A DNA stretch of 64,000 nucleotides, taken from positions 22,725,875-22,789,874 of the forward strand of contig OY720350.1 in NCBI GenBank assembly GCA_963082975.1, written 5' to 3'. This document shows positions 15,601 through 58,481 of the stretch, piece by piece. Below the pieces are notes generated by a model. That model did not search any database. It had not been told where the DNA came from and saw nothing but the letters and a program-made list of their open reading frames with translations. The translations under genes were made by a program, and so were the position numbers. The DNA comes from Labia minor. Taxonomy: Eukaryota; Arthropoda; Insecta; Dermaptera; Spongiphoridae. How positions within the stretch are numbered: the first letter of the stretch is position 1; each line of letters opens with the position of its first letter.

Positions 15601-15884
15601 CATGGCTAGTATGGGAGAGGAAAAATATATTGGTGGGGAGTTCGATTGGAAAACGTCCGTTTGGAAGACCAATTGTGAACAGGGCGGACAAAGTAGGAAG
15701 GAACGTGAGAGAGATGGGACAGGGTAGGAGTTAGATGGTTATAGCTCAGAATAGGGACACTCGGGGGGGTACAGGGGGCGGAGCCCCCGTCTAGGTGTGG
15801 AGATCGCCGAAGGCGCTCGAAGCAACTAGTATACAAATAAAAAGAAATATATTTATACAGATATAAAAAACAAATTGATGATTA

Positions 15885-15929
<45 letters not shown>

Positions 15930-20928: not shown

Positions 20929-23900
20929 TTATTTATGTCTTATAGTTATGATTATATTAAGTGGTATATGAGGCTTTAGAATTATTTCAGGTGAAACTTC
21001 AATCTCTTCAGATTTTTCAAGAGATTTTACTTTAAATTGAGATAAGATCATACAAAGGATAAGTTTGACTTCTTTCATTGCAAATTTTTGCCCTAAAAAA
21101 TATTAAACCAAATTAAATTATGAATTATTTAGAGATATATAATAATAATGTTGAAAACAAAAAATATCTTCACTTCTATTTACCTATACAGTTCCTTGGT
21201 CCAGCACTGAAAGGAAAATATGCATAGGGATTACGGCCTTCATTCCGATCAGGCAAGAATCTATCGGGATCAAATTTCTCAGGTTCTGGGAAAACTTCAG
21301 GGTCTCGATGCATTAAAAAAACTGGTATACTTACATCACTTCCTGAAGGTATAGTTAATCCATCTAAATTGTTTAAGTATAATAACATTTATTTTAAGAA
21401 TAATAATTTAAAATAAGTTTAAAAATATAATTTACCTAATTTTAATGGACTTGTAAGTGTTCGTGAAAAGATCGGTACACTCGGGTAAAGACGAAGCGTT
21501 TCTTTGATACAACGCTCTAAAAGATTAAGTTCCTTCAATCTTTTTGAAGTGTCCGTGAATTGCATTGCATAATCGACTTCCTCTAAAAGTTTCTCCTGTT
21601 TTAATTTAATAGTCGTTAGTACTAATTATAAAATTATTTCTTTGGCACAAATTTCAAAATATGAATAATTGAAATTTAACTGAAATACCTGTATTTCAGG
21701 ATTATTTCCTAAAAGGAAAAGACACCAGTTAATAGCACCAGCCGTAGTATCGTAGCCCTGTAAAATGTTAATATAATATTATATCAGCAATCAATTAATT
21801 TTATTAATATCAATCAAATTGGATATGAAATAATGATTTTTATGATATTATCTTATATTCTAATAAATTTCTTTAAAAATGTTAGAATAGATTATTTTTA
21901 ATTCGGCCATAAGAACAATCGGTTTTTACCCCAAACATGAATGTATCCACTTCCTCTCGAATTTCTTTATCTCCTATTCTTGAGTCATTATCTGAAACTT
22001 CTAATAACAGATCTAAGAAAGATAATTTCTCTTTTTTAACATCATCAGTATCATTTGCTAAAAAATCATAGTAAAATATTGAATTAAAAAAATTAAAAAT
22101 TCATATATAAAATAATTTTTTTTTAAACTTTCATATAATTCATCCACTTACTCTTATTTTTATTCAATTTATTTTGTTTAAATGTAACTTTTCTTTTTTG
22201 AATCACCTGGAAAAACGATATTTATATATAAATATTTTATTGATCTATATATATAAATAGATAGATATATAGTAAAATTCACCTCATTAGCAAAGCCATG
22301 AATTATTTTTAATAATCGGTTGTATTCCCTTCCTTGAGGTGAAAGCATAAATGTAATTGGGTTACGAAGCCAAAATTTTACCGTTCGTTCTCGAGTCAAT
22401 GAAGTTATCCTGATATTATTATTTTTTATTATATATACATATATATAATTAGTCTAATGATTAAAATACTTATATATCAATCTTTTTAAGTATATTTGTA
22501 CCTAGTAATGGATTCTGCATATGCACTGCCTTGAAGTTGAGCGTTGATTGTAACCCCCATCGCTGATTCTAAAATATAATAAAAAAATTGGCAGTCGTGG
22601 GACTGGCCGACAGAAGTGAAAACTTGTGCGTAAGAAATTTGAAAGCAGACGGAATGCGCACCAGCTTCACGAGAAAAATGAAATTTATATACGTATATAT
22701 ATATATATAAAATTCATAATTATTTTTTTCAGCAAACTGATTATTATTACAAAAATATTAAAAATACGATGTGTATGAATATACACTGCTCACAATTTGA
22801 AGTGGACCACTCGCAAAAATTCGAATATTTTAATTTTAATTAATAGTTCGACCTTAAAACCTTATTTATTCAATAGTAATAGGTTTTGTACATGAACGAA
22901 TATTAAATGCAACAATTTATTATTTAATATTAAAGAAAAAATAAATTAAATTAATTAAATAAATTTAAATTTAAAGACAATGTTTTTCTTTTTTGACTCC
23001 AATTTCATTTTATTGATATTGGAAACCATTAGCATTAGTTTTTATTTAACCAAAGTACTAGACAGCTTGTTAAAATGCCTTTAAGAAGACTTACTGCTGA
23101 AGAATTAGGTAGGGCTTTGGCTCTTTTAGAGTTAGGTCATTCTCAACGTGAAGTTGGCCATAGGCTTGGTTGCTCTCACACAGTAATCGGCAGAGCATGG
23201 ACACGATACCAGAAAACCGGTACAGCTCAATACACCCATGGAGGAGGCCGAGTTCGGAAAACTACCCTTCAACAAGACCGATATTTAAAAATTCAGATCA
23301 CTAGACAACCAGGTTCAAAAGCTCGACAACTGCAAAGTTCTTTACAGCACGCAACAGGGGTTCGTATTTCAACTCAAACAGTTAGAAACCGTCTCCACGA
23401 AATCGGCTTGAGGGCAAGAAGGCCAGCGCCAAAGGTTGTTTTAACGAGGAAAAATAAAGCTGCGCGTCTCCAATGGGCTTGTGAACATGTTAGTTGGACT
23501 GATGAAGATTGGGACCGCTGTTTATTTACTGATGAATCGAAATTTGTTCTCCAACATCATGATCGTCGTTCAAGAGTGTGGAGAGAGAAAAACCAGCGAT
23601 TTAACGATGGTATGACTGCGCCAGTACGAGCTTTTGGAGGAGGTTCAATAATGGTCTGGAAAACCCAGCTGATATTGTTCCGGAATGAACATGTGAACGC
23701 ACAAACGTGCCTGGACAAAATCCTCAGGCCTGTTATTGTTCCTTTGGCTCAAGAAATTGGGGAAAACTTCATTCTTGTTGATGATAATGCTGGTCCTCAT
23801 AGAGCCAAGGTGGTTAATCTTTATTTACAGGAGCCAGGAATCACTTGCCCGCTTGTTTACCCGATATGAATCCTATCGAGCATGTTTGGGATAAACTCCA

Positions 23901-26900
23901 ACGTCAGTTACACATGCGTTTATCTTGTCCAGATAACTTGGAGCAACTTGCAGAGGCATTAACTGAGGAATGGGCTTCCCTGCCTCAACATTTCATATTG
24001 AGCCTTATAAGGAGTATGAAACGTCGGTGTGAATCTTTAATTCGGAGCAGCGGAGGCCCAACATCCTATTAAGTGGTCAAATTTCATTTAATTGACTTCC
24101 AATTTCATTAAAATGATTTTCTAGACAAAAAAGAAAAACATTCTCTTTAACGTTAAATGTAATTTATTTTTTCTTTAATATTAAATAAGTTGACCTGTGG
24201 CTAGGTCCGAACCGACCGACGGTTTGAAATAAATTAATTTCCAGCTACAGAAACAATTTCAAATAATTTTAATATATCTATTAATGTAATAAAAAACAGA
24301 TAGGCATATAACATAAATATTTTTAATTTTATTTTATTTATAATATATATGTAAGACCAGGCTGTGACGTCATGAATGGCTGGATGACGTCATATAATTT
24401 TAAATTAAGAAAAACCAATAAAGATGATTTTTCTCGACAATAAAACCAATACAAAGTGAATGATTCGTGATGATATGTAAAAAATCTCCTCATGTGAAAT
24501 TTGGTGTGAAAATAACCCTTTCCTTCCTATCGTCGATCGCTAATACTACCACTTCCGGTTTCCGGAATTGCACCAAAAGTTGATCAATTCATCCCACTGA
24601 TGCATTAAGTAAATATACCAAATTTCATCAAAATCGGTTGAGCCGTTCAGGCTGTACACATCTATACGGACGGACAGACGGACAGACGGACGGACAGACG
24701 GACGGACGGACGGACGGACAGACATCATGCTAAAAATACTTTTTTCTGTTTAGAAAATGCATGATTCGTGGAGATATGTAAAAATCTCCACATGTGAAAT
24801 TTGGTGTGAAAACAATACCTCCCTTACTATCGTCGGTCGGTAAAAATAAATTGTTGTATTTAATATACATTCATGTGTCTTTATTTTTAAGCACAAAACC
24901 TATTACTATTGAATAAATAAGGTTTTAAGGTCGAACTATTAATTAAAATTAAAATATTCGAATTTTTGCGAGTGGTCCACTTCAAATTGTGAGCAGTGTA
25001 TATATATGTCTGTCTGTCTGTGTGTGTGTGTGTGTCTGTCAAATACTCAAAAACTACCCGTCCGATTGCGATGAAACTTTCAGGGATTGTTGTGGGCGTC
25101 CCAGGGAAGGTTTTAGTGTAGTTAAATCCAAAATTAATTTATCCAAAATTAATTTAAATAGTAATATTTTGGTAAAAGTCTATTTATGGTTACCATGGTT
25201 ACATTGAAAAATTTACAATAAATAAATAAAAATAATTGGAAATCTTTTCAACTTATTATTTTGATAAATTTTATTAATATTTTTAATTTTTTTTAAACTG
25301 CCAAAAATAACATACCCATAATAATAGTTGTAATAAAAATAAAAATATAAATCACAATGTAAGTAAAATATTGAATCGTTTTATTTATATTGTTTCAATT
25401 ATTGTTTGAATATTTATTAAATTTATATATAGATTAATTTACATGTTTAAATGTATATTTAATAAATTTATTTATTGATTCTTAATATTAATAATTCCAA
25501 TTACTTTCTTGAAATTTTTTTTTATTTAAAAGCATATTCACCATATTTCGCAAATTTGAATTGGATTAAATAACATATATTAATTTAAATTAAATTAAAT
25601 TAATTCAATTATAAATTAAAATTAATAAATAATATTTATTAAACCAGCGAAAGTTTGGCTCTTTTTTGATGGCACCACGTCACGTGTTGGCGCGTGAGAT
25701 TTCCAGTGTTAAAAAATTAATTCTGGTACTTTCAGCAATTCAATTTTCGATGTTGAGATTTTGATGTTTTTGATGTTATAAATAATATTTATTAAATTAT
25801 AATTTAATTAATTTAATTTAATTTAAATTAATAAATATTATTTAATCAAATTCAAATTTGCGAGATAGTCGAGTGGATAGTGGAGTGTTTGGCTCTTTGT
25901 TGATGGCACCAGGTCACGTGTTGGCGCGTGAGATTTCCAGTGTTAAAAAATCAATTCTGGTACTTTCAGCGATTCTATCAAGCTGAAATTCTATATATAA
26001 CAGTTTTATACAATTATTAATCCTGTGAAAAATTATCAAACATATATCTTTATTTTTACGGTCACACACACACACACATATTTAAAAATTAATTTATTAA
26101 AATATATATTATATAATATATTATATATAGTATATAATTTAATATATATATATATATATATATTCTGAAATTAATTTTAAATTATATAAATATATTAGAA
26201 ATTAATTTAATATAATTTAACACATAATAATATATTAAAATATTTTATTTTATATATACATAATTTAGTAATACTGATTATTAATGTAAATATAAATAAT
26301 AATATTTAATATGGCAAATATGTAAAATTTTGTAAAGAATGTATCAGAAGTTTAGTGTCTAACATTCTGGCGTATTGCGCATGCGTATATCGGTCGGGTC
26401 GGTCGGTCGGTCGGTCGGTCGGGTCGATCTCACCGGTCGGGTCGTTTTGGAATCTCACGCGAGTTCTATACTTTTTCCCCATCCCGCAAAAGTGCTCAAC
26501 GCCGCTAAAGAAGTTTTCACTTCAAAAAATATGTTATAAGAATTTCGTAATGAACCTTTTTTACTCTTAACTTTTCTCAATTTTTATTATATTCATTAAT
26601 CTCTTTTTTATTATCATGAATTTATTATTATTTAATATTTAAAATATCACGATTTGATTATTTGACTATTATCTTTGAAAGGAATCACAAAAGTAAGGGA
26701 AATTGACCTGCGGTAGGAAAAGAAAACGGTGAAATGAAACGGTGTTATGGGCCAAATCCCTAAGTTAGGTTGGGGAGTGTCGTTATGAATACATCGGTTT
26801 GCCCGTTAGAATTTTTTTTACTGTGAATCTCGATTTTCTATTTCGCTGAACACGTAATAGCTGATATTTTTGAGCAACGCATGACTGTGAATTTTGTTTC

Positions 26901-29082
26901 GTGTTTGGGAAATCAGCCGCGGATACTATTGTGATTTCAAAAAATACTTATGTGGATGCTGCTCTAATTAAAACCAAAAGTTATAAATAGTTTTCACGTT
27001 TCCAAAATTGAGAAATATCAATTGTAAATCAACCGGATTAAAGACGCCCCTCAACATCAAGAAATAACGACAATGTCGACAAAATCAATGTTCTTTTTTG
27101 TGAAAACCGTCGTCAAATCATAGATCATCTTTGTGAAATGTCTATAGAAAAGGCAAATAATTCTATTCTGACAACATCCTGACAACACCGGGCTAACTGA
27201 TTTTGACCAGAAACGGCTGATCTTCCACGTACCACATACTCAACAGATATAACCGTTTCAATCCAAAAGGGAAAAAAGAAAAGCGTGAAGGATGTAAACC
27301 AAAAATCACTGAAAGGTGAAAAGAACATCTCGTTAAGTAAATTTAAAAAATGTTTTAAATAATGAAAGGATCGTTTGGAGGGATGTGTTTTAGTCAATGG
27401 AGAATATTTAGAAGACGATCAAAATTTAGTCTAAATATTATGAGAAATAAAGAAGTTATTACGAAATTTGTGTTGTTTTTGAGTCCACCTCTCGTATATA
27501 AATATAAATTACAATGTTAATAAGAAAAATTTTAAATATCAATTATAGTATTTATATAAACATTTAAATAATTAACTATGCTGATTACCACAAATGATAT
27601 CCATGGTACAGTTACTAATGTATGGATAAATTTTGAAAGGTTTGCCACTTTTTGCATAGGGCTCTAAAAGTTCCAACAGAATCTGGCTATAATGATGGGT
27701 ATTGGTTTCATAATGATTCAAAATTTGAAAATGAAATGCATTGGTTAGCAGTTTCCGATGAAGAAACCATTTTTCACCTGGAACGATAAAATTTAAATTT
27801 ATCAATATTTACATAATTTTTATTAAAAATTTAAAATTTTATAATAATTTTAAATAGGAACATTACCTGAACTGATAAGAAGTCCTTCACCAAGCCAAGG
27901 TTTGAGAAAATCATAAAATATACTTTTTTTTATATTTTCATTACTACTTAAAAGGACCTAAAAAATAATTAAAACATCATAGAAAGTTATTATTATTATT
28001 TATTTATAGAATATTTTTCAAAACATTTTAATTTAAAATTATCTTATTTTGAAGTTAACTAAAAATATTAAAATTATTAATTAAACATTAGTAATAAAAA
28101 TTAATTTTGTTAAATTGTTTACCTGTACATCTTTTGCTTTAAATAATAAGACAATAGGAGTTCCAAGAGCCCAGATACGTACTCGATCACCGTAATTTTC
28201 GGACAATTTTTTTAAACCTTTAAAAAAATCTAAAAAAAAGATTTTTTTTCTATTTGTCATTTTAAAACTTATATTTTATATATTGTAAATAATCTTAATT
28301 TTTTATTTAATCAATCATATAAAAAAACCTCTGACTTTTATACGTCCTACGCAAGGCCAACGCTTATCATGTCACTTATGTTTCCTATGATCAGTAGAAC
28401 GAGTCCTATCAACCGTTACCTTGATTTTCTTGATCAGAGGCGCTACTTTTTATCAAGTAGCTTCACATTGTTGATCCCAGAGGCTGAGTTCACTCCATCC
28501 CACCCCAGCTAATGAAATTCCCTCGCCAGGTCAGGGATTATAACCCGGGACTCCGAGAACTTGAGCCAGCTACGCTAGCTCCCACCCTGTGGCGCCTTCT
28601 AATCTATTTTATGGCCATTTTAAAATAACAGAGTCCGAAAACATCACTTCTTACTATAAAAATAATAATATAAACGTTTTTGGTTTGAATCTCCTCACCA
28701 ATACCCCCATTTCTTATTGTGTTAATTAAATAAATATGAATTCAGAATAAATAAAAAGATAAAGAATATTAGAAAATACACGTTTTAGGGAATATAATAA
28801 CTGAAAAATCAATCTGCCCAATTTTGTTTGTAAAAGTAGTTTATACGAATATAATAAATCTTTATATAAATGTTTAAAGAATTCATAAATTCGTAATTGA
28901 GTAAAAATAATACCTTTATTGGGTACCTTGAATACATCTATATTGCCGACGAATGACTTTGGATCCGGGCCTGGAATTTTATTGATAGCATCTTGAAGCT
29001 CTTTACTTGGAAATTTGTATGGCACAAATAAATAGAGAATTCCAAAAACTATAACTAAACCCACCAAAACCCAAAAAAACAT
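20929..29082 (-). CDS. P450-C: complete CYP4-type cytochrome P450 with altered I-helix (501 aa)
   Basis: Exons: 28914-29082, 28123-28229, 27867-27957, 27589-27777, 22502-22568, 22283-22409, 22152-22206, 21930-22057, 21689-21757, 21436-21595, 21184-21363, 20929-21092. Total 1506 nt, open throughout, same phases as B, D and F. The anchor, hinge ([10 protein letters not shown]), C-helix WFLHR, ETLR, FDPDRF and heme loop [10 protein letters not shown] with Cys446 are intact. The I-helix differs: the CYP4 signature reads EVDTFMFG then GYDTTAG, so E311 is Gly and H313 is Tyr, while D314, T315 and T316 remain. In CYP4 enzymes that Glu forms an ester bond to the heme, so this protein should hold its heme non-covalently. 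Intron 4 is about 5 kb and contains a Tc1 element, a family X copy inside it, and a long repeat found inverted at the right window end. Exons 6-8 with introns 6-7 match P450-F almost exactly (conversion tract). Likely an active but modified enzyme. Confidence 0.92.
23075..24072 (+). pseudogene. Tc1-type transposase, frameshifted
   Basis: The N-terminus has a paired-like helix-turn-helix ([20 protein letters not shown]) and a second DNA-binding segment. The catalytic core shows FTDESKF and LVDDNAGPH in one frame, and [16 protein letters not shown] (the Glu) in another; the frame change falls near 23830-23850. About a dozen residues also seem missing after GGGSIMVW. Recent but non-functional. 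Confidence 0.8.
24187..24846 (+). mobile_element. Family X element, copy 3 (insertion site can be reconstructed)
   Basis: Complete copy inserted in the right TIR of the Tc1 element. The undisturbed left TIR (around 22915-22935) supplies the empty site and shows no target duplication beyond an ambiguous TT. Confidence 0.8.
25152..26528 (+). repeat. Long repeat R, left copy (inverted partner at 62670-64000)
   Basis: About 1.35 kb matching the right end of the window in inverted orientation, including TGCGCATGCGTATATCGGTC, a GGTC-repeat tract, and an end with TAAAGAAGTTTTCACTTC. It contains two rearranged family Y pieces (25548-26070). Homology to P450-B intron 4 resumes immediately after it at about 26535, so it marks the edge of an insertion into P450-C intron 4. 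Confidence 0.7.
26880..27490 (+). mobile_element. Degenerate mariner 3' part
   Basis: Ends with a mariner-like terminus: on the minus strand it reads ATACGAGAGGTGGACTCAAA. Preceded by a plus-strand remnant [16 protein letters not shown], typical of mariner transposase C-termini. Many stops. It lies in P450-C intron 4. Confidence 0.5.
28330..28600 (-). mobile_element. tRNA-derived SINE in P450-C intron 1
   Basis: On the minus strand, TAGCGTAGCTGGCTCAAG resembles a pol III A box and GGGTTATAATCCC a B box, at tRNA-like spacing. A unique body with CTTGATAAAAAGTAGCGCC follows. A fragment of the body recurs at 17030-17180. Confidence 0.45.
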
Positions 29083-35422: not shown

Positions 35423-38400
35423 ATGTTTTTTTGGGTTTTGGTGGGTTTAGTTGTACTTTTAGGAATTCTTTATTCGCTTGTGCCATACAAATTTCCAAGT
35501 AAAGAGCTTAAAGATGCTATCAATAAAATTCCAGGCCCGGATCCATTGCCATTTGTCGGCACTATGAATATTTTTAATGTACCTAGTCAAGGTAATTATT
35601 TTTACTCAAATTTATATATCAAATTTGTAATTCTTTAGTTATTTTTTGAATTTTCTCCTGGTCATTTTTGGTATTCGTTTAATTTAAAATCATTACAAAA
35701 AATAAAGTATTAATTAATATATTAAATTGAAGAAAATTAAAATTTTCAAAGTACTCTGACAATAATATATATATATATATATATATCATTTGTAGAGTGT
35801 AATATAATATTTAATTTAATTTTAGTTGAATATTAAATATGCAATATTAGAAAATTAGATTTTAGTTTAAAAATTATTTATACCAAATTTTTTTCAAAGA
35901 TTCATAGATAAATTAAAATAATATATTTTCAAATTTCATTATTAATTTAATTATTAGTTATAATATTGGAATAATATTTATTATTATGAAAGTTAATTTA
36001 AAATGTCACTTGAATCATTACACTGGTAGATTTTTTATTGTTTATTTATTACCGCGCGCGCGCCGCGCGACCGACGATACTAAGGGAGGTATTGTTTTCA
36101 CACCAAATTTCACATGTGGAGATTTTTACATATCTCCACCAATCATGCATTTTCTTAACAGAAAAAAGTATTTTTAGCATGATGTCTGTACGCCCGTCCG
36201 TCCGTCCGTCCGTCTGTCCGTCCGTCCGTATAGATGTGTACAGCCTGAACGGCTCAACGGATTTTGATGAAATTTGATATATTTACTTAATGCATCAGTA
36301 GGATGAATTGATCAACTTTTGGTGCAAATCCGGGAACCGGAAGTGGTAGTATTAGCGATCGACGATAGTAAGGGAAGGGTTATTTTCACACCAAATTTCA
36401 CATGAGGAGATTTTTTTATATATCACAACGAATCATGCACTTTGTATTGGTTTGATCTTCGGGAAAATCATATTTATTAGTTTTTTCTTGATTTAAAATT
36501 ATATGACGTCATCCAGCCATTCATGACGTCACATCCTGGTCTTGCATATATATTATAAATAAAATAAAATTAAAAATGTTTAAATTTATTATTTATGTAT
36601 GCCTATCTGTTTTTTATTACATTAATAGATATATTAAAATTATTTGAAATTGTTTCTGTAGCTGGAAATTAATTTACTTCAAACCGTCGGTAGGTTAGGA
36701 CCTGGCCACAGGTCAACTTATTTTTATATTTATTGCCAATATGTTGATTATTTAATTAGTATTTATGTAAGAGTTGCAACAAAAAAAGAATTATTCACCT
36801 GAAAAATGGAACTAAATAAAAATACAAGAAATTTAATCCAATTAATTATTAGAGACTTTAATTATTATTGGACTAACACACAAAACTTATAAATTTTCTT
36901 AAAAATGTATTTTTTTCATAATAATACCGCATATTTAATGTTAATAAATACTTTTTATTGATTTATTGTATTATTTACTTTCAATCATTTATATTGTGAA
37001 AAATTATTAATATAAATGACATCAAATTTGATAAATTAATTTAAAAGAATATTTTTTTGTTTCATTTTTATATAGATAACATTAAAGTTCTTAAAAAAAT
37101 GATCGATACATATGGTGATCGAGTACGTTTCTGGGCCCTTGGAATTCCTATTGTATTATTGTATAAAGCCAAAGATGTACAGGTAAATAATTTTAATCAG
37201 TTTTATTTAATAAGTATTAATTTCTAAGGTTTTATTGATAATTCGAAACTAATTAGATTATTTTAATGATTTAAAAAAAAATAATTTTAGGTCCTTTTAA
37301 GTACCAATCAAAATATAAAAAAAAGTATATTTTATGAATTTCTCAAACCTTGGCTTGGTGAAGGACTTCTTATCAGTTCAGGTAATGTTCCTATTTAAAA
37401 TTATTATAAAATCCTAAATTTTTAATAAAAATTATGTAAATATTGATAAATTTTATCGTTGTTGTTTTCAGGCGAAAAATGGTTTCTTCATAGAAAACTG
37501 CTAACCAATGCGTTTCATTTTCAAATTTTGAATCATCATGAAACCATTACCTACCATTATAGTCAAATTCTATTGGATCTTTTAGAGCCCTATGCAAAGA
37601 GTGGCAAACCATTCAACATTTATACATACATTACGAACTGTGCTATGGATATCATTTGTGGTAATTTTTAATATTTAAGGTAAAACCGAGGAATATGACA
37701 CACAATTCGAGTTTTTGTCAAATTACAAATGCTAATACCTATATAACCTGATTATTGCTTATCATCCTCAATCTCTGTCACACACCAAAAGGGTTAGTTT
37801 TCAAAATATCGAAAACACACCATATCCCTAACTTCATCATATTCCTCGGAATTTTCTTGCACTAATTAAGGTTATGATATAAATACGATAACCGAGAGAA
37901 AGTAAATAAGAATTTATCAATTACTTTAGTATGAAGGATGTAGGCAGGATTCGGTACAATGTTTTAAAAAATCTATTTTTATTATATATTAGAATCCGCG
38001 ATGGGGGTTCCAATCAACGCTCAACTACAAGGTAGTGAATATGCAGTCTCCATTACTAGGTACAATTATACATAAATTAATGCATATATATATATTACCA
38101 ATTATTAACTAAATAAATCAATATCAGGATAAGCGCATTGACTCGAGAACGAACGGTAAAATTTTGGCTTCGTAACCCAATTACATTTATGATTTCTCCT
38201 CAAGGAAGGGAATACAACCGATTATTAAAAATAATTCATGGCTTTGCTAATGAGGTGAATTTTACTATATCTATCTATTTATATATATAGATCAATAAAA
38301 TATTTATATTATATATAAATATCGTTTTTCCAGGTGATTCAAAAAAGAAAAGTTACATTTAAACAAAATAAATTGAATAAAAATAAGAGTAAGTATATTA

Positions 38401-39981
38401 ATTATATGGAAATTTAAAAAAAAATTATTTTATATATGAATTTTTAATTTTTTTAATTCAATATTTTACTATGATTTTTTAGCAAATGATACTGATGATG
38501 TTAAAAAAGAGAAATTATCTTTCTTAGATCTGTTATTAGAAGTTTCAGATAATGACTCGCGAATAGGAGATAAAGAAATCCGAGAGGAAGTGGATACATT
38601 CATGTTTGAGGTAAAAACCGATTGATCTTTTGGCTTTATTAAAAATAATCTATTCTAATATTTTAAAGTAGAAATGAATAATAATATCATAAAAATCGTT
38701 ATTTTATATTCAATTTAATTGATATTAATAAAATTAAATTATATATCTATCTATTGATGTCTGTGTGGCTCTACAGAACTCGAAAGTTTTTGGCCGCAGC
38801 AACCACATTACTACAAATGTCCCTATCCTGAGCAATAACCATCCAAATCGTATTTTCATCTCTCTCATATGCCTTCATTGTCCACCCACCGCGTCCTTGG
38901 TCTTCCAAGCGGACGTTTCCCTATTGGTTTCTCAACAAATTTAGCCCATTCACCATTCTTACATCTTCCAATCTAGCCACGTGTCCTGCCTATCGCAACC
39001 TTCTCGATTTTTTTAACCCTAATATCCCTGTAGATGTCTAGAAGTCATACAATTTCTCGTTATGCAGTCTCCTCCATTCCCCGATAACATCATCTTTCTT
39101 TGGTATATAAAAATTAACTGATATTAAATTAACATTTTATAGGGCCACGATACTACGGCTGCTGCTATTAACTGGTGTCTTTTCCTTTTAGGAAATAATC
39201 TTGAAATTCAGGTAATATTTTAAAATTTGTGTTAAAGAATTTATAAATTTATTAATAATTTTTATTTTGTTATTAATCTTTGGTATTAATTCAATTTTTA
39301 ATCGATACAGGAGAAAGTTTTAGAGGAGGTCGATTATGCAATGCAATTCACGGACACTTCAAAAAGATTGAAGGAACTTAATCTTTTAGAGCGTTGTATC
39401 AAAGAAACGCTTCGTCTTTACCCGAGTGTACCGGGATTTTCACGAGCTATTACAAGTCCATTAAAATTAGGTAAACTATTTTGTTAAACTTATTTTAAAT
39501 TATTATTCTTAAATAAATGTAACAACTCTTAAACAATTTAGATGGATTAACCATACCTCCTGGAAGTAATGTAACTCTATCAGTATATTTAATGCATCGA
39601 GACCCTGAAGTTTTCCCAGAACCTGAGAAATTTGATCCCGATAGATTCTTGCCTGATCGGAATGAAGGCCGTAATCCCTATGCATATTTTCCTTTCAGTG
39701 CTGGACCAAGGAACTGTATAGGTAAATACAAGTGAAGATATTATTTTCTTTCAACAAATTTATTATTTATCTCTAAATAATACTTAATTTAATTTAATTT
39801 GGCTTAATATTTTTTAGGGCAAAAATTTGCAATGATTGAAGCAAAACTAGTCCTTTGTATGATCTTATCTCAATTCAAAATAAAATCTCTTGAAAAACCC
39901 GAAGAGATTGGAGTTTTGCCGGAACTTATTCTTAAACCTGATAGACCACTCAATACAATCGTCACTAAAAGACAAAAATAA
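35423..39981 (+). CDS. P450-D: complete CYP4-type cytochrome P450 (501 aa), left arm of inverted duplication
   Basis: Exons: 35423-35591, 37076-37182, 37291-37381, 37472-37660, 37993-38059, 38128-38254, 38334-38388, 38483-38610, 39143-39211, 39311-39470, 39542-39721, 39818-39981. Total 1506 nt without stops. Protein: membrane anchor 3-20, hinge [10 protein letters not shown] 37-46, C-helix W126-R130, CYP4 signature EVDTFMFE 304-311 followed by GHDTT 312-316, ETLR 366-369, FDPDRF 418-423, heme loop F439 to G448 with axial Cys446. All key residues are canonical, so an active microsomal monooxygenase is expected; CYP4 enzymes often hydroxylate fatty acids, hormones or xenobiotics, and the substrate here is unknown. 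It is the only plus-strand P450 in the window and the inverted counterpart of P450-F. Intron 1 holds a family X copy and intron 8 a LINE fragment, both shared with F. Intron 4 carries an internally deleted form of a TIR element that is longer in F. Confidence 0.95.
36066..36724 (-). mobile_element. Family X element, copy 6 (P450-D intron 1)
   Basis: Orthologous to copy 10 in P450-F intron 1. Its left end carries a CG-dinucleotide run (CCGCGCGCGCGCCGCGCG) not seen in other copies. Confidence 0.8.
37685..37850. mobile_element. TIR element in P450-D intron 4, internally deleted
   Basis: ACCGAGGAATATGACACACA at one end and CATATTCCTCGG at the other. About 166 bp, versus about 724 bp at the same place in P450-F. 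Confidence 0.6.
38750..39108 (-). mobile_element. LINE 3' fragment in P450-D intron 8
   Basis: Antisense LINE tail with the TATCTATCTATTGATG terminus and the same RT C-terminal region as the 5.1-5.5 kb copy. Shared with P450-F intron 8. Confidence 0.65.
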
Positions 39982-43966: not shown

Positions 43967-46900
43967 TTATCTATGTCTTAAAGTGATGATTGTTTTGATT
44001 GGTCTGTCAGGCTTTAGAGTTAATGCACATAAACCTTGAATTTCTTCAGGATGTCCAAAAGATTGTATTTTGAATTTAGACAAAATCTTACAAAGAACAA
44101 GTTTGGTTTGAAACATTAAAATATAATCGTCTAAAAATATTAATTCAATTTAAATAAAATCCAGAAATAAATATAAATATTTAAATTTAAATTTCTTCAA
44201 TCCAACTCACTTATCATACTTCTTGGTCCAAAACCGAATGGGAAATATCCATTCGGGCGATGATTTGTCAAACAAAAATGCTTTCTTGCGAGTTTAAACA
44301 TTTCTGGATCTGAGAAAACTTCAGGGTCTCGTTGAGTTAAAAAGATTGGTATAGTTACATCACATCCTGGAGGTATGGTTAATCCTTCTAAATTAATTAA
44401 GAATTATAACATTTATTTTAATTTTTAATAAGACCATTCTGATTTAAGTAAAATAATTTAAGGTAGTTTAGTAACCAAATGACTTAAGCTTGACCATATA
44501 TTTTTTTATATTTATTCGAAAGATTATAATTAAATACATTAAATTGAATCGAATAATTATTTCATTATTTGTAAAAAAAAAATAAAGTTATTTTTTTGAC
44601 TTCGGATTGCGGCTCCCAAACTACCTTAAATAAATGATTTACCTAATTCTACTGGACTAGTAACAGCAGTTCTATAGATCGGTACACTCGGGTAAAGGCG
44701 AAGCGTTTCATTGATACAACGGTCTAAAAGATTAAGTTCCTTTAATCTTTCTGAAGTGTCAGTAAAGTGCATTGTAGAATTGACCTCCTCACAAATTTTC
44801 TCCTGTTTTAATTTAATAATCGTTAGTACTAATGATAATAATTGTAAAATAAAAATTATTAATGAATTAAGAAAAATTATTTCTTTGGGACAAATTTCAA
44901 AATATGAATAATTGTAAGTTTACTGAAATACCTGTAACTCAGGTTTTTTTCCTAGAAGGAAAAGACACCAATAAATAGCATTAGCCGTAGAATGGTAGCC
45001 CTGCAAAATGTTAATTGATATCATTTATTAGAAATTCTTTAAAATTATTAATTTTATAAATTTCTTTTTAGATAAAAATGAAATTTCCATATAAATTATT
45101 TTTATAATATTAACATATTTTTCTATTAATTTCTAAATAAATATTTTAAAATATTCTAATAGAATAGATTATTTTTATGGCCAAAAGATCAATCAGTTTA
45201 ACCTCAAATATGAATGTATCCATTTCCTCTCGGATATCTTGATCACTTATTCTAAGATCTCTTTGCCCAACTTCTAATAATAAATCTAAGTAAGATAATT
45301 TCTCTTTTTTTAAATTCTTAAAATCTTTGACTATAAAATAAACAAATAACAACATTAAAAAACATATTTAAATTTAATTGTATAATATTTTATATAAATA
45401 TGTCACTTACCCTTCTTTAAAATTTGTTTAAATGTTTTTTTTCGTTTTTCAATCACCTTGAATAAAATATATTTTTATATAAAGTATACATATCTAATCT
45501 AATTAAATATATTTTGATTGAAATATTAATAAGTTAAATTCACCTTGTTTCCAAAGCAATTAATTACTTTCAGTAATCGGTTGTACTCTCTGCTTTGATA
45601 TGCAATTTTAAATAGATTACCAAGCGAACATTTCTCACATGTTTCAGATGCCAATTCACTTATCCTGATATTTATTTATTTAATTAATATAATAAGTATA
45701 TAAGCATAAATATATCATTATATGTATGATAGTACCTAAAAATTGCTTTTCCATAGTCTTTGCCATATTCTTGAAGGTATTGTTGATCTCCCGTCACTAT
45801 TTCTATCATAAAAAAATATACATATTTATAAGAATATTGTACCGGATCCTACATTCTTGTTTATTTTGGTAAGTTAAAGTTATGTTTTATATATCACCAA
45901 TGTCCTATCTTGATTAAGTATAGTGACGGCGAAAAGTCAACGCCAGGGTGGCGCTGTTATCGGGCAATCAACTAACTGAAAAGATGTATTGTTATGACCC
46001 GATAACATCGCCACCCTGGTGTTGATTTTTTTCGACAATATACATCACTTGTGAAGTCATAAATAATAAAATATTATATAATAAAAATAAATTACCACAA
46101 ACGATATTCATAACACAACTGGTGATGTATGGATAAATGTTGAATGATTGGCCTTTTCTTGAAAGGAGCTCTAAAACTTGCGTAAGAATATCGCTATAAC
46201 GGTAGGTAATTTCGTTATAATTATTTAGCATTTGAAATCTGAATGCACTGGTTAACTGTGTCCGGTAAAGATTCCATTTTTTGACTGAAAATAACAACAA
46301 TACAATTTCTCAGTCTTAACCTAGCTTTTATTAACAATTTAAAATTTAAAAATATTTTTAAATTACGTGAACCGATGGGAAATCCTCCATGAAGCGAAGG
46401 TTTGATATATTCATAAATTGTACTTTGTCTTCTATCAGGATTTTTACTTAAAAAAGCCTAAAAATCAATCAACATTCAAAATGTATGCATTATTTTTTTA
46501 AAACATTTTATTTTGTGTTCTTTTGTTTTTTAATTGACAAAAATTGAGGTTACCGAGGAATGGCGGAGACTGCATAACGAGGAATTGCATGACCTCTATG
46601 CATCTCCAGATATGGTTAGAATTATAAAATCGAGAAGGCTGTGATGGGCAGGCCACGTGGCTAGAATGGGAGAGGAAAGAATGGCGAAAAAGATATTCGT
46701 GAGGTGTCTGAGTGGGAAAAGTCCACTTGGAATGCCAAGGACGCGGTGGGTGGGGTAGGAAGGGGTAGGAAGGGACGTGAGAGAGATGGGAGAGGGTAGG
46801 GATTGAAGGGTTGTGACTCAGGATAGGGATACATGGAGAAGTATGGTTACTGTGGCCAAAAACATTCGAGTTCCATAGAGCCACCATGATAAATAGATAG

Positions 46901-49292
46901 AATTGACAAAAATAATCTATTAATAAAATATTAGTTATTATATTACTTAACACATTAATTAAAAGTGAATATTTCTATACCTCTACATCTACTCCTTTAT
47001 ACAATACTACAGTAGGCGTTCCATATTGCCAGAAACGTACTCGGTCACCATATGTATCTTGCAGTTTTTTAAGAAGTTTAATTTTATCTATATAAAAAAA
47101 AAACGAAAACACTTTTAAATTAATTTTTCAAAATATTTTTTTTTAAATTTGATGTAATTTATATATTAAATTAATTTTCTCAAAAAAATAATTATAATAT
47201 ATAATAAATTTATAGAAGTCATTGAAACATTTCATTGAATATGTATAAAAAAAACGTTTATTTATTTTTAAAATTAATATCCCATAATCTATGTTCTAAT
47301 TTCTAAAAATAATAATTAATAAAATTTAATCTTTAGCATCCTTAAGGTATTTATTTGGAAGAATTTGTGTGAATTTAATTATATTGTGTATTGAAAATAG
47401 AAAAAAATTGTAAATATAAATATAAATATAACATGTGGTAGTTTCCAAAGTATTAATTTTATATTCATTGTCGGAAAATATTTCACTTAAAATATAGTTG
47501 AATAATTAAACTAAAAATAAAAACCAAGATAATTTAATTTTTAATTTACTCATTTTAATTCAAGTTTTAAAAATGTTTTTTATTATACTTTTTATATATC
47601 TTATCTTATTATACTAGTAAAAATATACAAGCAAATATTGCATATATATATATATATAAATATATATTTGTATATTTTTAAGATATTAAACCGCTCGAAG
47701 GATTTTTTTGAAAATATACCATAGATAAAATTTATAAAGATTGGTATGTAAAGTATTGGTTTCAGCCTCGAGAAAAATCAACTTTATTAATATTTTCTTA
47801 TTTTAAAATAGTAGATTTAAATGACGTCATCCATATTGAAATTTGCCCCTTGCCATTTTTTTTAATTGATATTGTATTAATATTTTTTTATATTTAAAAT
47901 ATTTTAAATTTTTTTTACTTCATTTCGAAATAAAATTAAAAATATTTATTTTAATAATATTTTAGAAATTAAAGATATATTTAACACAGATTTGATCTCA
48001 TTATAAGAAAATGAATTAAAATGAGAAATTTTGAAGAATTTGGAATTAGAATGATAATTGTCATCAATACTCAGAACTTAATTCCATCATCTGTAAACTA
48101 TTAATTTATTTTAAAATCATTAAAATTTGTAAATAAATTTCTTGGAAAATATCTATAAACCTATAAAAATGGACAATATTTATTTTAAAATATTATCATT
48201 TCCAAAATTTCATCTGGTAAATTAGATACATATTATATTATACTCAACAAATAACAATTAAAAAGGTATATATTTGTCAGCTTATTAAAAATTTTTAAAC
48301 AAAACCCTTAGAGATAAAAATAAACATTCAGATTAAATAAAGAATTTTATTTTCTTAATTTTAATATTTTAATATTTTATTTGTAAAAATAGACTATACG
48401 AATATAAAATAAGTTGACCTGTGGCCAGGTCCGAACCGACCGACGGTTTGAAATAAATTAATTTGCAGCTACAGAAACAATTTCAAATAATTTTAATATA
48501 TCTATTAATGTAATAAAAAACAGATATGGATATAACATAAATATTTTTAATTTTATTTTATTTATAATATATAGCTGAAGTAGCCGGCGTTACCCGAGGC
48601 TGTGAAGTCATGAAGGGCTGGGTGACGTCATATAATTTTAAATTAAGAAAAACATAATGAAGATGATTTTTCCCGAGGATAAAACCAATACATTCGTGGT
48701 GATATGTAAAAAAATCTCCTTATGTGAAATTTGGTGCGAAAATAACCCTTCCCTTCTTATCGTCGATCGCTAATACTACCACTTCCGGTTTCCGGATTTG
48801 CACCAAAAGTTGATCAATTCATCCCACTGATGCATTAAGTAAATATACCAAATTTCATCAAAATCCGTTAAGCCGTTCAGGCTGTACACATCTATACGGA
48901 CGGACAGACGGACGGACAGACGGACAGACATCATGCTAAAAATACTTTTTTCTGTTAAGAAAATGCATGATTCGTGGAGATATGTAAAAATCTCCACATG
49001 TGAAATTTGGTGTGAAAACAATACCTCCCTTACTATCGTCGGTCGGTAAAAAAATGTCCAGAGAAAAAGTTAAAAATATTTTTTGAATTATAAGAGAATT
49101 TTTGAATAAATTTATGATAAAGTAAAAATAATTACCTTTACTGGATGCATTAAATATATTACTATTACCGATAAATGGTATTGGATTTGGGCCTGGAATT
49201 TTACTAATAGCTTCGCTTATTTCGTTTGGCAGACAATAGGATAGAAATAATACTGAAAGCACAAATAAACCCACCAAAACCCAATAAAACAT
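43967..49292 (-). CDS. P450-E: diverged P450-like protein lacking the heme-ligand cysteine (491 aa)
   Basis: Exons: 49136-49292, 46981-47087, 46367-46457, 46096-46284, 45736-45802, 45544-45664, 45411-45456, 45203-45330, 44932-45000, 44643-44802, 44211-44387, 43967-44130. Total 1476 nt, no stop or frameshift, with the same 12-exon layout and intron phases as its neighbours. Kept: N-terminal anchor, hinge KIPGPNPIPFIG, C-helix W122-R126, I-helix E302, ETLR 357-360. Lost: the I-helix reads GYHSTA instead of GHDTTA, so the acid is His; exon 3 PWLGEG is PSLHGG; the FDPDRF region is scrambled; the heme loop reads FGFGPRSMI with Met436 where the axial Cys belongs. Length changes in exons 1, 6, 7 and 11 are all multiples of three. 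A normal P450 cannot work without the thiolate ligand, so this is either a pseudoenzyme under constraint or a recently silenced gene. It lies in the spacer between D and F. Confidence 0.85.
45923..46037. mobile_element. Palindromic MITE in P450-E intron 4
   Basis: Inverted arms of about 40 bp, for example CCAGGGTGGCGCTGTTATCG and CGATAACATCGCCACCCTGG, around a short centre. Confidence 0.65.
46545..46905 (+). mobile_element. LINE 3' fragment in P450-E intron 2
   Basis: Sense-strand RT tail ([20 protein letters not shown] region, one stop) with GRGRWGRP-type terminus, ending in AAATAGATAGA. Confidence 0.65.
47690..47960 (-). repeat. Diverged relative of family X in P450-E intron 1
   Basis: TATTGGTTTCAGCCTCGAGA and AAATGACGTCATCC match the family X interior; the rest is eroded. 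The adjacent stretch resembles positions 1-130 of the window. 47100-47690 holds only AT-rich sequence. Confidence 0.45.
48411..49054 (+). mobile_element. Family X element, copy 8 (P450-E intron 1)
   Basis: Complete copy with the variant GCTGAAGTAGCCGGCGTTAC segment shared with copy 10. It ends only about 80 bp from exon 1. Confidence 0.8.
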
Positions 49293-53303: not shown

Positions 53304-56300
53304 TTATTTTTGTCTTTTAGTGATGATTGTATTGAGTGGTCTATCAGGTTTAAGAATAAGTTCCGGCAAAACTCCAATCTCTTCGGGTTTTTCAAGAGAT
53401 TTTATTTTGAATTGAGATAAGATCATACAAAGGACTAGTTTTGCTTCAATCATTGCAAATTTTTGCCCTAAAAAATATTAAGCCAAATTAAATTAAATTA
53501 GGTATTATTTAGAGATATATAATAAATTTGTTGAAAGAAAATAATATCTTCACTTGTATTTACCTATACAATTTCTTGGTCCAGCACTGAAAGGAAAATA
53601 TGCATAGGGATTACGGCCTTCATTCCGATCAGGCAAGAATCTATCGGGATCAAATTTCTCAGGTTCTGGGAAAACTTCAGGGTCTCGATGCATTAAATAT
53701 ACTGATAGAGTTACATTACTTCCAGGAGGTATGGTTAATCCATCTAAATTGTTTAAGAATTGTTACATTTATTTTAAGAATAATAATTTAAAATAAGTTT
53801 AACAAAATAGTTTACCTAATTTTAATGGACTTGTAATAGCTCGTGAAAATCCCGGTACACTCGGGTAAAGACGAAGCGTTTCTTTGATACAACGCTCTAA
53901 AAGATTAAGTTCCTTCAATCTTTTTGAAGTGTCCGTGAATTGCATTGCATAATCGACCTCCTCTAAAACTTTCTCCTGTATCGATTAAAAATTGAATTAA
54001 TACCAAAGATTAATAACAAAATAAAAATTATTAATAAATTTATAAATTCTTTATCAAAAATTTTAAAATATTACCTGAATTTCAAGATTATTTCCTAAAA
54101 GGAAAAGACACCAGTTAATAGCAGCAGCCGTAGTATCGTGGCCCTTTAAAATGTTAATATAATATCAGTTAATTTTTATGTACCAAAGAAACGAGAAAAT
54201 GCATTATTTCTATGCATCTCAAGACATAGATAGGATTAAAATATCGAGAAGTTTGCGATAGGCAAGAAAAGTGGCTACTTTTTATATAGCAAAGAAAGAT
54301 GATGTGATCGGGGAATGGTGGAAACTACATAACGAGAAATTGTACGACTTCTCTGCATCTCCAGGGATATTAGGGTTAAAAAATCGAGAAGGTTGCGATA
54401 GGCAGGACACGTGGCTAGATTGGAAGATGTAAGAATGGTGAATGGGCTAAATTTGTTGAGAAACCAATAGGGAAACGTCCGCTTGGAAGACCAAGGACGC
54501 GGTGGGTGGACAATGAAGGCATATGAGAGAGATGAAAATACGATTTGGATGGTTATTGCACAGGATAGGGACATTTGTAGTAATGTGGTTGCTGCGGCCA
54601 AAAACTTTCGAGTTCTGTAGAGCCACACAGACATCAATAGATAGATATATAATTTAATTTTATTAATATCAATTAAATTGAATATAAAATAACGATTTTT
54701 ATGATATTATTATTCATTTCTACTTTAAAATATTAGAATAGATTATTTTTAATAAAGCCAAAAGATCAATCGGTTTTTACCTCAAACATGAATGTATCCA
54801 CTTCCTCTCGGATTTCTTTATCTCCTATTCGCGAGTCATTATCTGAAACTTCTAATAACAGATCTAAGAAAGATAATTTCTCTTTTTTAACATCATCAGT
54901 ATCATTTGCTAAAAAATCATAGTAAAATATTGAATTAAAAAAATTAAAAATTCATATATAAAATAATTTTTTTTTAAACTTTCATATAATTCATCCACTT
55001 ACTCTTATTTTTATTCAATTTATTTTGTTTAAATGTAACTTTTCTTTTTTGAATCACCTGGAAAAACGATATTTATATATAAATATTTTATTGATCTATA
55101 TATATAAATAGATAGATATATAGTAAAATTCACCTCATTAGCAAAGCCATGAATTATTTTTAATAATCGGTTGTATTCTCTTCCTTGAGGTGAAAGCATA
55201 AATGTAATTGGGTTACGAAGCCAAAATTTTACCATTCGATCACGTGTCAATGCGCTTATCCTGATATTTATTTATTTAGTTAATAATTGGTAATATATAT
55301 ATATATATATATATATGCATTAATTTATGTATATTTGTACCTAGTAATGGAGACTGCATATTCACTACCTTGTAGTTGAGCGTTGACTGGAACACCCATC
55401 GCTGATTCTAATTTATAATAAATTTAATTTTTTTAAGATTGTACTGAATTCTATCTATTTGTTTATATTTCAAGATTTATTATAGTAAAGTGATTGATAA
55501 ATTGTTAATTAATTTCCTTCAGTTATCGTATTTATATCATAACATTATTTAGTGTTACCGAGAAATATGGCGCAGTTAGGGATATGGCGTGTTATCGATA
55601 TTATGAAAACTAACCTTTTTGATGTGTCAAAGAGATTGAGGTTGATAATAACTACTTATTTAACTAGATGAAGCATTTCTTTCTTATTGTTAGTTATAAG
55701 CGAATCGTCGTGAAAGGTCGATTTGATTTGTCCCCCATCTTGATGTACAACACATGAGAATTTTAATCATATTTATTTCTAAGACCCATGATTTGTTTTC
55801 TTTTGCAATTTTCGTAAATAAAGTTTATTCTACGTTTTTCTACATTCTTTAAAATTAATATTAAGACTTATTTATTCACATATCCCTTATTGTTTACTAT
55901 TTGCAAGTCTTTATCTAAAATTTTATCGAAGAAGAAATATGGCTCATTCTGTGTGCGAGGGATATGGCGTGAGTTTAAACCTCTACTTAAGAGTGAAAAA
56001 TTTATCCCCAAAACAATTTAATAAGAAGAGGACACTCATTTTTTTTTATTTTAATATAATTCCCCATAAGCCATATACTCCACAGTAACAATCACCAGTC
56101 CTGTTAGGGATACTGCCGAAATGTTAACTTTTTTATTTTTGTAAATTTTAGTAGTTCTTATTTTGAGATTAAAGTTTTGTTTAGTTAATCCTAGGTGCCA
56201 TTAACACCAATAATCATGTCATATAGTTATTAGCATTTTAGATTTGACAAAAACCAGAATTGTGTGTCATATTCCTCGGTTTTACCTTAAATATTATAAA

Positions 56301-58481
56301 TTACCACAAATGATATCCATTGCACAGTTAGTAATGTATGTATAAATGTTGAATGGTTTGCCACTTTTTGCATGGGGCTCTAAAAGATCCAAAAGAATCT
56401 GGCTATAATGGTAGGTAATGGTTTCATGATGATTCAAAATTTGAAAATGAAATGCATTGGTTAGCAGTTTCCGATGAAGAAACCATTTTTCGCCTGAAAA
56501 TAACGAAAAAACATAGCTTTTATTAACAATTTAAAATTTTATAATAATTTTAAATAGGAACATTACCTGAACTGATAAGAAGTCCTTCACCAAGCCAAGG
56601 TTTGATATAATCATAAATTGAACTTTTTTTTATATTTTGATTACTACTTAAAAGGACCTAAAAAAAATTTTTTTTAAGCCACTAAAATAATCTAAATAGT
56701 TTCGAATTATCAATAAAACCTTAGAAATTAATACTTATTAAATAAAACTGATTAAAATTATTTACCTGTACATCTTTGGCTTTATATAATAATACAACAG
56801 GAATGCCAAGGGCCCAGAAACGTACTCGATCACCATATGTATCGATCATGTTTTTAAGAACTTTAATGTTTTCTATATAAAAATGAAACAAAAAAAAAAC
56901 GTTTAAAATAATTTAACAAAAAATTTTATTAAATTTGATGTAATTTATATTAATGATTTTTCACAATATAAATTATTGAAAGTAAATAATAGAATAAATC
57001 AATAAAAAGTATTTATTTACATTTTAATACTCAATTTTTTTATTTATAGTATTTTTATATATCTTTCTGTTTATAATTATTATAAATAATAATATTTAAA
57101 ATTCCTAACTTTCCTTTATGTTTATGACCTATTCGGCAACCCTATTTTGCCTTCTAAATGAAATATTAATTTATGCAAATTTGAATATTTTAAATTGTAT
57201 TTATGATTTGATATTTCTTCATATAATTATTTACCGATTCAATTACAATCGTTATAAAATCATAACCAATTAAAATATATTTCATTCAAATATTTTGGAT
57301 ACTACATTTAGATATATTCTACTCTGAACTTTAAAAAAAAAAAATAAAAGGAAATTTTATTTTTCTAAAAACTAAATTGGATATTTTCTTAATATTTTTT
57401 TAATAATTATATATTAAAAAAATACATTTTTGAGAAAATATATTTAGTTTTATGAATTTTTAGTTTTTATTTCCAATGTTGAGGTGAATAAAATTTATTA
57501 ATTTTTTTTTTAACAATTTAATTAATTAAATAAATATAATAAGTTGACCTGTGGCCAGGTCCGAACCGACCGACAGTTTGAAATAAATTAATTTCCAGCT
57601 ACAGAAACAATTTCAAATAATTTTAATATATCTATTAATGTAATAAAAAACAGATATGGATAGAACATAAATATTTGTAATTTTATTTTATTTTTAATAT
57701 ATAGCTGAAGTAGCCGGCGTTGCCTGTGATCATAATAAGGAGGCTGTGACGTCATGAAGGGCTGGGTGACGTCATATAATTTTAAATTAAGAAAAACATA
57801 ATGAAGATGATTTTTCCCGAGGATAATACCAATACATTCGTGGTGATATGTAAAAAAATCTCCTTATGTGAAATTTGGTGCGAAAATAACCCTTCCCTTC
57901 CTATCGTCGATCGCTAATACTACCACTTCCGGTTTCCGGATTTGCACCAAAAGTTGATCAATTCATCCCACTGATGCATTAAGTAAATATATCAAATTTC
58001 ATCAAAATCGGTTGAGCCGTTCAGGCTGTACACATCTATACGGACGGACAGACATCATGCTAAAAATACTTTTTTCTGTTTAGAAAATGCATGATTCGTG
58101 GAGATATGTAAAAATCTCCACATGTGAAATTTGGTGTGAAAACAATACCTCCCTTACTATCGTGGGTCGGTAAAAATAAATACATAATATAATATCTACC
58201 AGTGCAATGATTCAAGTGACTTTTGAAATTAGCTTTTAAAATAATAAATAATATTTCATTCAATATGATAACTAATAATTAAATTAATAATGAGTTGAGT
58301 AAAAATAATTACCTTGACTGGGTACATTAAATTCATACATATTGCCGATAAATGGCAATGGATGCGGGCCTGGGATTTTATTGATAGCATCTTTAAGCTG
58401 TTTACTTGGAAATTTGTATGGCACAAGCGAATAAAGAATTCCTAAAAGTACAACTAAACCCACCAAAACCCAAAAAAACAT
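53304..58481 (-). CDS. P450-F: complete CYP4-type cytochrome P450 (501 aa), right arm of inverted duplication
   Basis: Exons: 58313-58481, 56766-56872, 56567-56657, 56305-56493, 55341-55407, 55134-55260, 55003-55057, 54781-54908, 54075-54143, 53816-53975, 53564-53743, 53304-53467. Total 1506 nt, open. Exon lengths are identical to P450-D, and coding, intron and flanking sequence align in inverted orientation. Motifs are canonical: hinge [11 protein letters not shown]-helix W126-R130, EVDTFMFE then GHDTT, ETLR, FDPDRF and heme Cys446. It differs from D mainly in exon 1 (for example KQL for KEL, PHP for PDP, MYEF for MNIF). The ATG at 58481 aligns with all paralogs; an in-frame upstream ATG lies in the conserved 5' leader and is not preferred. 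The acceptor of exon 9 is AAAG rather than the usual TATAG. Intron 1 holds a family X copy, intron 4 a 0.7 kb TIR element, intron 8 a LINE fragment. Confidence 0.94.
54170..54648 (+). mobile_element. LINE 3' fragment in P450-F intron 8
   Basis: Sense-strand LINE tail equivalent to that in P450-D intron 8. The first about 130 bp repeat the start of the fragment, so this copy has a partial internal duplication. It ends AATAGATAGATATA. Confidence 0.65.
55557..56280. mobile_element. TIR element in P450-F intron 4, longer form
   Basis: Ends ACCGAGAAATATGGCGCAGT and CATATTCCTCGGT. The interior holds repeats of a GGGATATGGCGTG motif. Same insertion as in P450-D intron 4. Confidence 0.6.
57541..58176 (+). 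mobile_element. Family X element, copy 10 (P450-F intron 1)
   Basis: Orthologous to copy 6. Contains GCTGAAGTAGCCGGCGTTGC and a minimal CGGACGGACAG microsatellite. Confidence 0.8.

Follow-up and report, generated by a model that had tools for sequence, protein, structure and literature searches.

The 64,000-nucleotide stretch of the Labia minor genome analyzed here (hereafter the window; C9:22725875-22789874, on contig OY720350.1, in a genome of 604 Mb in 71 contigs) lies within a cluster of CYP4-type cytochrome P450 genes, which was followed over 184 kb, i.e. from 50 kb before the window to 70 kb beyond it. Eleven complete 12-exon genes (G1, G2, A, B, C, D, E, F, H, I and J) could be spliced from this region, all with identical intron phases, GT-AG introns and no internal stops. 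The subject of this work is one of these genes, P450-E (minus strand, 43967-49292), in which the heme-ligand Cys is replaced by Met.

Structure of P450-E and the residues lost and kept

Spliced from genomic DNA, P450-E comprises 12 exons with 1476 nucleotides altogether and encodes a CYP4-like protein of 491 amino acids (Table 1). There are no internal stops, 11 of the 11 introns have GT-AG borders, and the intron phases are those of the ten other spliced cluster genes; relative to C, D and F, exons 1, 6, 7 and 11 are shorter by 12, 6, 9 and 3 nucleotides, respectively, all multiples of three. Splicing and exon comparison bear out the first-pass annotation of this stretch, which had described 12 exons, all phases and exclusively in-frame length changes. 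The GC content at third codon positions is 0.250 (0.185-0.267 in the other genes). The Pfam profile PF00067 covers the full length of the spliced protein (residues 33-478, 244.4 bits at a cut-off of 22.8; 361-375 bits for siblings A, C and D), which assigns E to the P450 superfamily by profile, and the best 19-residue hydropathy of the membrane anchor is 2.22, compared with 2.64-2.81 in C, D and F. A gene is assigned to the CYP4 family if it is at least about 40% identical to named members; E is 46-55% identical to A, B, C, D, F, G1 and G2 and 36-38% identical to H, I and J, none of which is a named gene. In both codon and protein trees, E is nested among the A-F copies and adjoins C (ultrafast bootstrap support 66 and 87).

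The heme loop of E reads FPFGFGPRSMINDYILM, with Met where B, C, D and F carry Cys; together with the start of the L helix it reads FGFGPRSMINDYILM, as opposed to FSAG[PR]RNCIG[QK]KFAM in the ten siblings. Two P450 signatures are lost, namely the axial Cys of FxxGxRxCxG (FGFGPRSMIN in E, where the next Gly is also changed, to Asn) and the acid-alcohol pair of the I-helix motif [AG]GxDT (Asp305 to His, Thr306 to Ser). The I-helix core is GYHSTA in E, compared with GHDTTA in six of the ten other genes, GHDTTS in one, GYDTTA in C and GFDTTA in two. The first-pass annotation correctly noticed both losses, although it bracketed the Met codon roughly, at 44214-44222 (the ATG is at 44217-44215), gave as the neighbors' form a GHDTTA that fits six of the ten genes, the Asp-Thr pair being present in all, and overlooked the wider change around the loop, in the L helix and in the meander. 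This wider change includes Gly438 to Asn, Gln439 to Asp, Lys440 to Tyr, Phe441 to Ile and Ala442 to Leu, together with a DPDRF meander that has become KLARK. In our alignment the meander of E has Phe416 at a position where gene A has Ser and the nine remaining cluster genes have Pro. In human CYP4B1, according to the account in PMC9916508, near-absent activity is at least partly due to a Ser that replaces the meander Pro, and restoring the Pro leads to partial recovery; the Pro lost in E seems to match this one.

Several other hallmarks are retained: the C-helix W122 and R126, the helix-K ExxR motif (ETLR, 357-360, with E357 and R360), the meander Arg (R413, aligned with the Arg of DPDRF), R434, and Glu302, the I-helix Glu that binds heme covalently in CYP4 enzymes and that is absent from sibling C. 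The alignment upholds the earlier statement that ExxR, the C-helix Trp and Arg and the covalent Glu are kept, and likewise the statement that every neighbor has the Cys, which is present in 10 of the 10 other spliced cluster genes. It is also present in 62 of the 62 P450 heme loops sampled elsewhere in the genome, a sample that consists of Pfam-profile matches outside the cluster reaching the loop and is biased toward canonical or intact loops; 56 of these fit F..[GSA].R.C, another four retain the Cys with His in place of the Arg, and in the last two the Cys lies on the next exon.

Altogether E is altered at 65 of the 173 columns at which the other ten genes all agree, including 2 gaps, compared with departures of each of these ten at 0-11 of the 173-184 columns invariant in its remaining nine. 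The damage is not significantly greater in the heme pocket: of the invariant columns, 9 of the 16 at positions 427-447 and 56 of the 157 elsewhere are altered (Fisher p=0.11). With neither the Cys thiolate nor the Asp-Thr pair of the I helix, and with the heme face of the L helix lost, E should be incapable of P450 monooxygenation; the features that are kept fit the maintenance of a fold and a frame rather than of a P450 catalyst.

An alternative donor in exon 11, AGAA|GTATGA, judged by eye, would remove SMI and yields no Cys. A sequencing error at one codon was rejected, given that the changes span the whole gene. No second copy of E was found among the 96 matches listed in a whole-genome search with E, these counts being lower bounds, and outside the E span identities reach at most 57% off C9 and at most 65% in the rest of the C9 cluster, so an extra copy elsewhere was rejected.

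Neutral decay and selection on the E branch

The first-pass annotation held that a dead gene of this divergence should show stops or frameshifts. This expectation is confirmed by simulations of neutral evolution from C or D, in which about 20 stops are expected at a distance d of 0.3 and 8.5-8.7 at d=0.1, every one of 1000 runs acquiring a stop at both distances, and 8-14 of 1000 runs are stop-free at d=0.05. It is also confirmed by the D-F introns: those that pass a simple alignability filter contain 34 indels of a length not divisible by three per 125 mismatches, and therefore many frameshifts would be expected in E if it were neutral, whereas it has none. Neither a broken frame or splice site nor neutrality of all sites (see below), the marks of a pseudogene, is found in E; with stops and frameshifts absent, the old-pseudogene reading is ruled out, and E is no old pseudogene. 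Had all constraint on E ended, this would have happened within d 0.033 by stops alone and within d 0.006-0.016 when frameshifts are added at the full, half or quarter intron indel rate. In codons 435, 436 and 438-442, 14 of 21 nucleotides are not those of the closest gene among A, B, C, D and F, compared with an average of 0.208 differences per nucleotide over the gene; P would be 8.5e-12 if these changes had arisen within d 0.05, a value that serves only as a guide because the region was picked post hoc, and a very recent death leaves no room for so many changes. The Cys-to-Met codon, in which all three bases differ, could be the result of three substitutions or of the loss and gain of three nucleotides.

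Two further approaches were discarded. The introns of E are of no use as a neutral clock (mismatch 0.18-0.21, hardly better than the 0.23-0.32 of shuffled alignments), and E is not a recent gene-conversion mosaic, given that exons 8-10, although nearer to the siblings (66%), have a synonymous divergence (dS) of 0.28-0.30, which is not near zero.

Branch models with eight genes, 489 codons and four topologies yield a ratio of nonsynonymous to synonymous divergence (dN/dS, or omega) of 0.81-0.92 on the E branch and 0.15 on the background. With dN of 0.31-0.32 and dS of 0.35-0.39, the branch accumulated 364-377 nonsynonymous and 101-112 synonymous changes, i.e. about 473-485 inferred substitutions with no stop or frameshift. 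A ratio near 1, together with disrupted orthologs, had been named in the first-pass annotation as speaking against a function of E; on the branch average such a value is indeed found, but a site-heterogeneous model rejects the neutrality of all sites. Specifically, a model with all E sites neutral, which has one parameter fewer than the branch-site null model, fits worse than the latter (twice the log-likelihood difference, 2dlnL, of 33.0, 27.9 and 26.2 under three topologies and 27.7 without gene C). In the branch-site alternative, a class with omega2 of 2.2-2.4 comprises 49-52% of the sites, with likelihood ratio test (LRT) values of 10.97, 12.57, 12.84 and 11.94; the 435 strict gap-distant columns give an LRT of 8.94 and omega2 of 2.1. 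The branch-site models are our own implementation, not codeml. Under these models constraint persists at about 40% of the E sites, and an omega near 2.2 describes about half of them. None of 31 null simulations reaches an LRT of 10.97 (maximum 5.93), and of the control branches C and G2 give 0.0, A 2.2 and B 2.3. With neutrality at all sites fitting worse and a class at omega>1 being favored, a mean omega near 1 on the E branch need not mean neutrality. High-posterior sites are scattered across E, with regional means of 0.38-0.65 that peak in the meander (0.65), followed by the F-G region (0.61).

The substitutions in E are also conservative. Compared with neutral simulations conditioned on an open frame (300 per proxy gene), E changes at polar columns remain polar in 78-79% of cases (60% under neutrality; 0 of 300 simulations as high), and the mean BLOSUM62 score of the changes is -0.24 to -0.31, as against -0.74 to -0.75 under neutrality (0 of 300 as high per proxy).

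Neighboring genes and other features of the cluster

The genes that share the window with E are listed in Table 1 along with the exons of E itself. The inverted copies D (35423-39981, plus strand) and F (53304-58481, minus strand) flank E. At the end of exon 8 of gene C (21930-21932), Gly stands in place of the CYP4 covalent-heme Glu, which is present in the ten other cluster genes. C and F share 346 identical bases, including introns 6 and 7 (22327-21982 and 55178-54833), compared with 83-91% identity in most other C-F matches; this tract is likely a recent gene conversion. Exon 11 of gene A, before the window start (L013:9041-9220), encodes GRRNCIG for GPRNCIG and a meander Ser where the nine other canonical genes have Pro.

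Table 1. Exons of P450-E and other P450 genes in the window
Feature	Positions	Strand	Remarks
E exon 1	49136..49292	-	start codon, membrane-anchor helix, PGP hinge (KIPGPNPIP)
E exon 2	46981..47087	-	
E exon 3	46367..46457	-	W109 to S and G111 to H, both invariant in the other ten genes
E exon 4	46096..46284	-	C-helix WxxxR retained: W122 46276-46274, R126 46264-46262
E exon 5	45736..45802	-	least conserved exon, 27% identity to C, D and B
E exon 6	45544..45664	-	two codons shorter than in neighbors
E exon 7	45411..45456	-	three codons shorter than in C/D/F
E exon 8	45203..45330	-	ends in Glu302 (45205-45203), at the alignment position of the CYP4 covalent-heme Glu
E exon 9	44932..45000	-	I-helix core GYHSTA; His305 (44994-44992) replaces Asp
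E exon 10	44643..44802	-	ExxR retained (ETLR, 44709-44698)
E exon 11	44211..44387	-	meander KLARKHF for DPDRFLP; heme loop FGFGPRSMI; Met for Cys 44217-44215
E exon 12	43967..44130	-	L-helix start NDYILM for GQKFAM (Asn codon split between exons 11 and 12 after its first base); stop codon
Gene A	1597..6041	-	exons 1-8 within the window; exons 9-12 before the window start
Gene B	9670..18523	-	canonical copy
Gene C	20929..29082	-	possible E sister (bootstrap 66 and 87); Cys retained, covalent Glu lost (FMFGGYDTT)
Gene D	35423..39981	+	canonical copy, inverted duplicate of F
Gene F	53304..58481	-	canonical copy, 96% protein identity to D

Between C and D, an exon-3-like P450 stretch (31216-31288, minus strand), for which the scan found no partner exons, is a probable relic of a dead copy. 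Outside the window, L016:3985-4153 and L016:8455-8561 contain H-like P450 exons 1 and 2 on the opposite strand; no more exons of this copy were found in the scan. A 264-residue open reading frame at 23075-23869 (plus strand) contains a helix-turn-helix domain of a Tc3-type transposase (PF01498, 1.9e-21), and another one at 34249-34575 (plus strand) has no Pfam match at E 0.001, although one piece of it resembles what we take to be the catalytic end of a mariner transposase.

Possible roles of P450-E

Pseudoenzymes are a known kind of protein, and E combines lost catalytic residues with a frame under selection and a fold that, as far as the sequence alone tells, is kept. With some reservation, we are inclined to regard E as a protein-coding gene for a membrane-anchored P450-fold pseudoenzyme that has taken up a new role. 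The reading frame of E appears to have been preserved by selection, and E probably makes a protein with a job other than that of a P450. We infer that this protein is expressed and folded and that it would bind or sequester ligands or modulate other proteins. A pseudoenzyme with a binding or regulatory role had already been proposed in the first-pass annotation; of this proposal, the maintenance of the frame under selection gains support from the rejection of the all-neutral model, and the role itself is a suggestion from sequence. In the scenario that we envisage, tandem duplication would have yielded a spare young CYP4-type copy, which would then have lost the thiolate and the oxygen-activating I-helix pair, whereby the pocket and the proximal face would have been freed. 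Subsequently, selection would have retained E as a membrane-anchored P450-fold protein with its hydrophobic N terminus and hinge, preserving the open frame, the splicing, the polarity pattern and the heme-propionate residues while much else changed. The likeliest roles would be to bind or sequester the hydrophobic ligands of the siblings, or to modulate sibling P450s or the reductase in the membrane of the endoplasmic reticulum.

Several observations weigh against this reading. The mean omega of the E branch is not separable from 1 (2dlnL 0.2-1.5), and gene conversion between C and F disturbs both dS and topology. The control branch G1 also signals (LRT 9.24, 2% of sites at high omega), and values above 2.71 occur in 3 of the 31 null simulations, against an expectation of about 1-2; because of these two results, we hold with only moderate confidence that omega exceeds 1 on part of the E sites. 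At hydrophobic columns the conservative tendency is weak: with C, D and F as proxies, 18, 25 and 48 of 300 simulations, respectively, reach the value of E. Furthermore, E changed 63 of 171 columns invariant in all ten other genes and 60 of 152 that are invariant in A, B, C, D and F but variable outside them (Fisher p=0.65). P450-specific constraint on E thus appears to be absent, because invariant and variable columns were changed equally often, and this argues against a P450 function still being maintained.

This last result, along with the mean omega near 1 and the alteration of 65 of 173 otherwise invariant columns, would also be in keeping with E being a fast-evolving P450 that died very recently, its frame being intact for want of time, with no present function; the cluster does hold relics, such as the exon-3-like fragment at 31288-31216. 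We consider this, the main rival reading, unlikely, given that the unconstrained time, at most d of about 0.006-0.033, is less than one tenth of the dS of 0.35-0.39 on the E branch, that the 14 of 21 nucleotide changes in the heme loop exceed what this span allows, and that the E substitutions are conservative. An assembly or gene-model artefact, in which a true Cys copy was misread, is scarcely credible: the changes are gene-wide, the Met codon differs from that for Cys at all three bases, no second copy of E exons is among the matches of the whole-genome search, and the exon scan of the 184 kb finds one exon-11-like and one exon-12-like exon in the E span, which continue the gene, and no Cys form.

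The other alternatives grant E a function and differ in what it would do. Heme binding by E through a residue other than Cys is possible, the propionate residues and Glu302 being kept. That E might still be a heme protein, with the thioether of Met436 or another residue as the ligand and with the pocket reused for electron transfer or for gas or peroxide chemistry, is nevertheless doubtful. W122, R126, E357, R360, R413 and R434, which we take to be heme-propionate or ERR-triad positions in P450s, are retained along with Glu302 while 65 of 173 invariant columns changed, and a Met is aligned at the ligand position; but changes in the L-helix face, at Gly438 and in the Ser-Ala that precedes Gly432 make it unlikely that the loop geometry is kept, and the chance of keeping six given invariant residues at a retention of 108 of 173 is 0.06, for six residues that we chose ourselves. 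Moreover, the Glu ester of CYP4 heme arises autocatalytically, as described in PMC9916508, which presumably requires an active heme. The fullest form of this idea, a natural thioether-ligated P450-fold cytochrome that arose from a P450 during a single burst of tandem duplication, with Met436 as the proximal ligand, the propionate residues and Glu kept, the I-helix His, and a positively selected new function, strikes us as quite improbable. A working non-thiolate enzyme, such as an isomerase or hydrolase that uses the P450 pocket independently of heme, is very improbable: about half of the sites at omega near 2.2 could reflect a reshaped pocket, but the high-posterior sites are scattered over the protein, no other catalytic motif is recognized by eye, and Pfam reports P450 alone.

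The pseudoenzyme reading can be placed among known systems. The best sequence match of E in PDB is rabbit CYP4B1 (5T6Q; E-value 3.9e-39, residues 25-459). Like CYP4 P450s, E has a membrane anchor, WxxxR, ExxR, a Glu at the covalent-heme position and an Arg two positions before that of the Cys; unlike them, it lacks the Cys ligand and the I-helix Asp-Thr, and has a replaced L-helix heme face and a changed meander (Phe416). With siblings C, D and F it shares exon number, phases, locus, 53-55% identity and a promoter homology recognizable by eye, whereas these genes keep the Cys loop and the background omega is 0.15 compared with 0.81-0.92 for E. Engineered P450 folds with a non-Cys axial residue reportedly include P450cam C357M and the Cys-to-Ser 'P411' of P450-BM3; these are laboratory single mutants, whereas E is natural and changed throughout. 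PpoC of Aspergillus nidulans is said to have a P450-like domain without the Cys. Like E, it is a natural protein with a P450-like domain; unlike the stand-alone CYP4-type E, it is a fungal dioxygenase fusion of unrelated origin. Titles cited in PMC13049297 and PMC4727417 describe PpoC as a fungal fusion with only one active heme. No Cys-less arthropod P450 is described in the titles and abstract openings of the open-licence literature searched, which leaves most subscription papers outside and does not show absence from print.

P450s are defined by their Cys-thiolate heme chemistry, and Cys-less copies are usually filed as dead. Such genes can escape profile searches that are weighted by the heme loop: the 107 matches listed in the whole-genome Pfam P450 search, in which 92 of 311 candidates were scored, do not include E, yet its spliced protein is recognized by Pfam. 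In this cluster a young Cys-less copy has kept its frame, against odds near 1e-9 under a simple neutral model (the Poisson value at d=0.3), with Cys-bearing siblings adjacent as controls. P450-E would offer a natural case, open to testing, in which a P450 fold has been put to a use besides oxidation.

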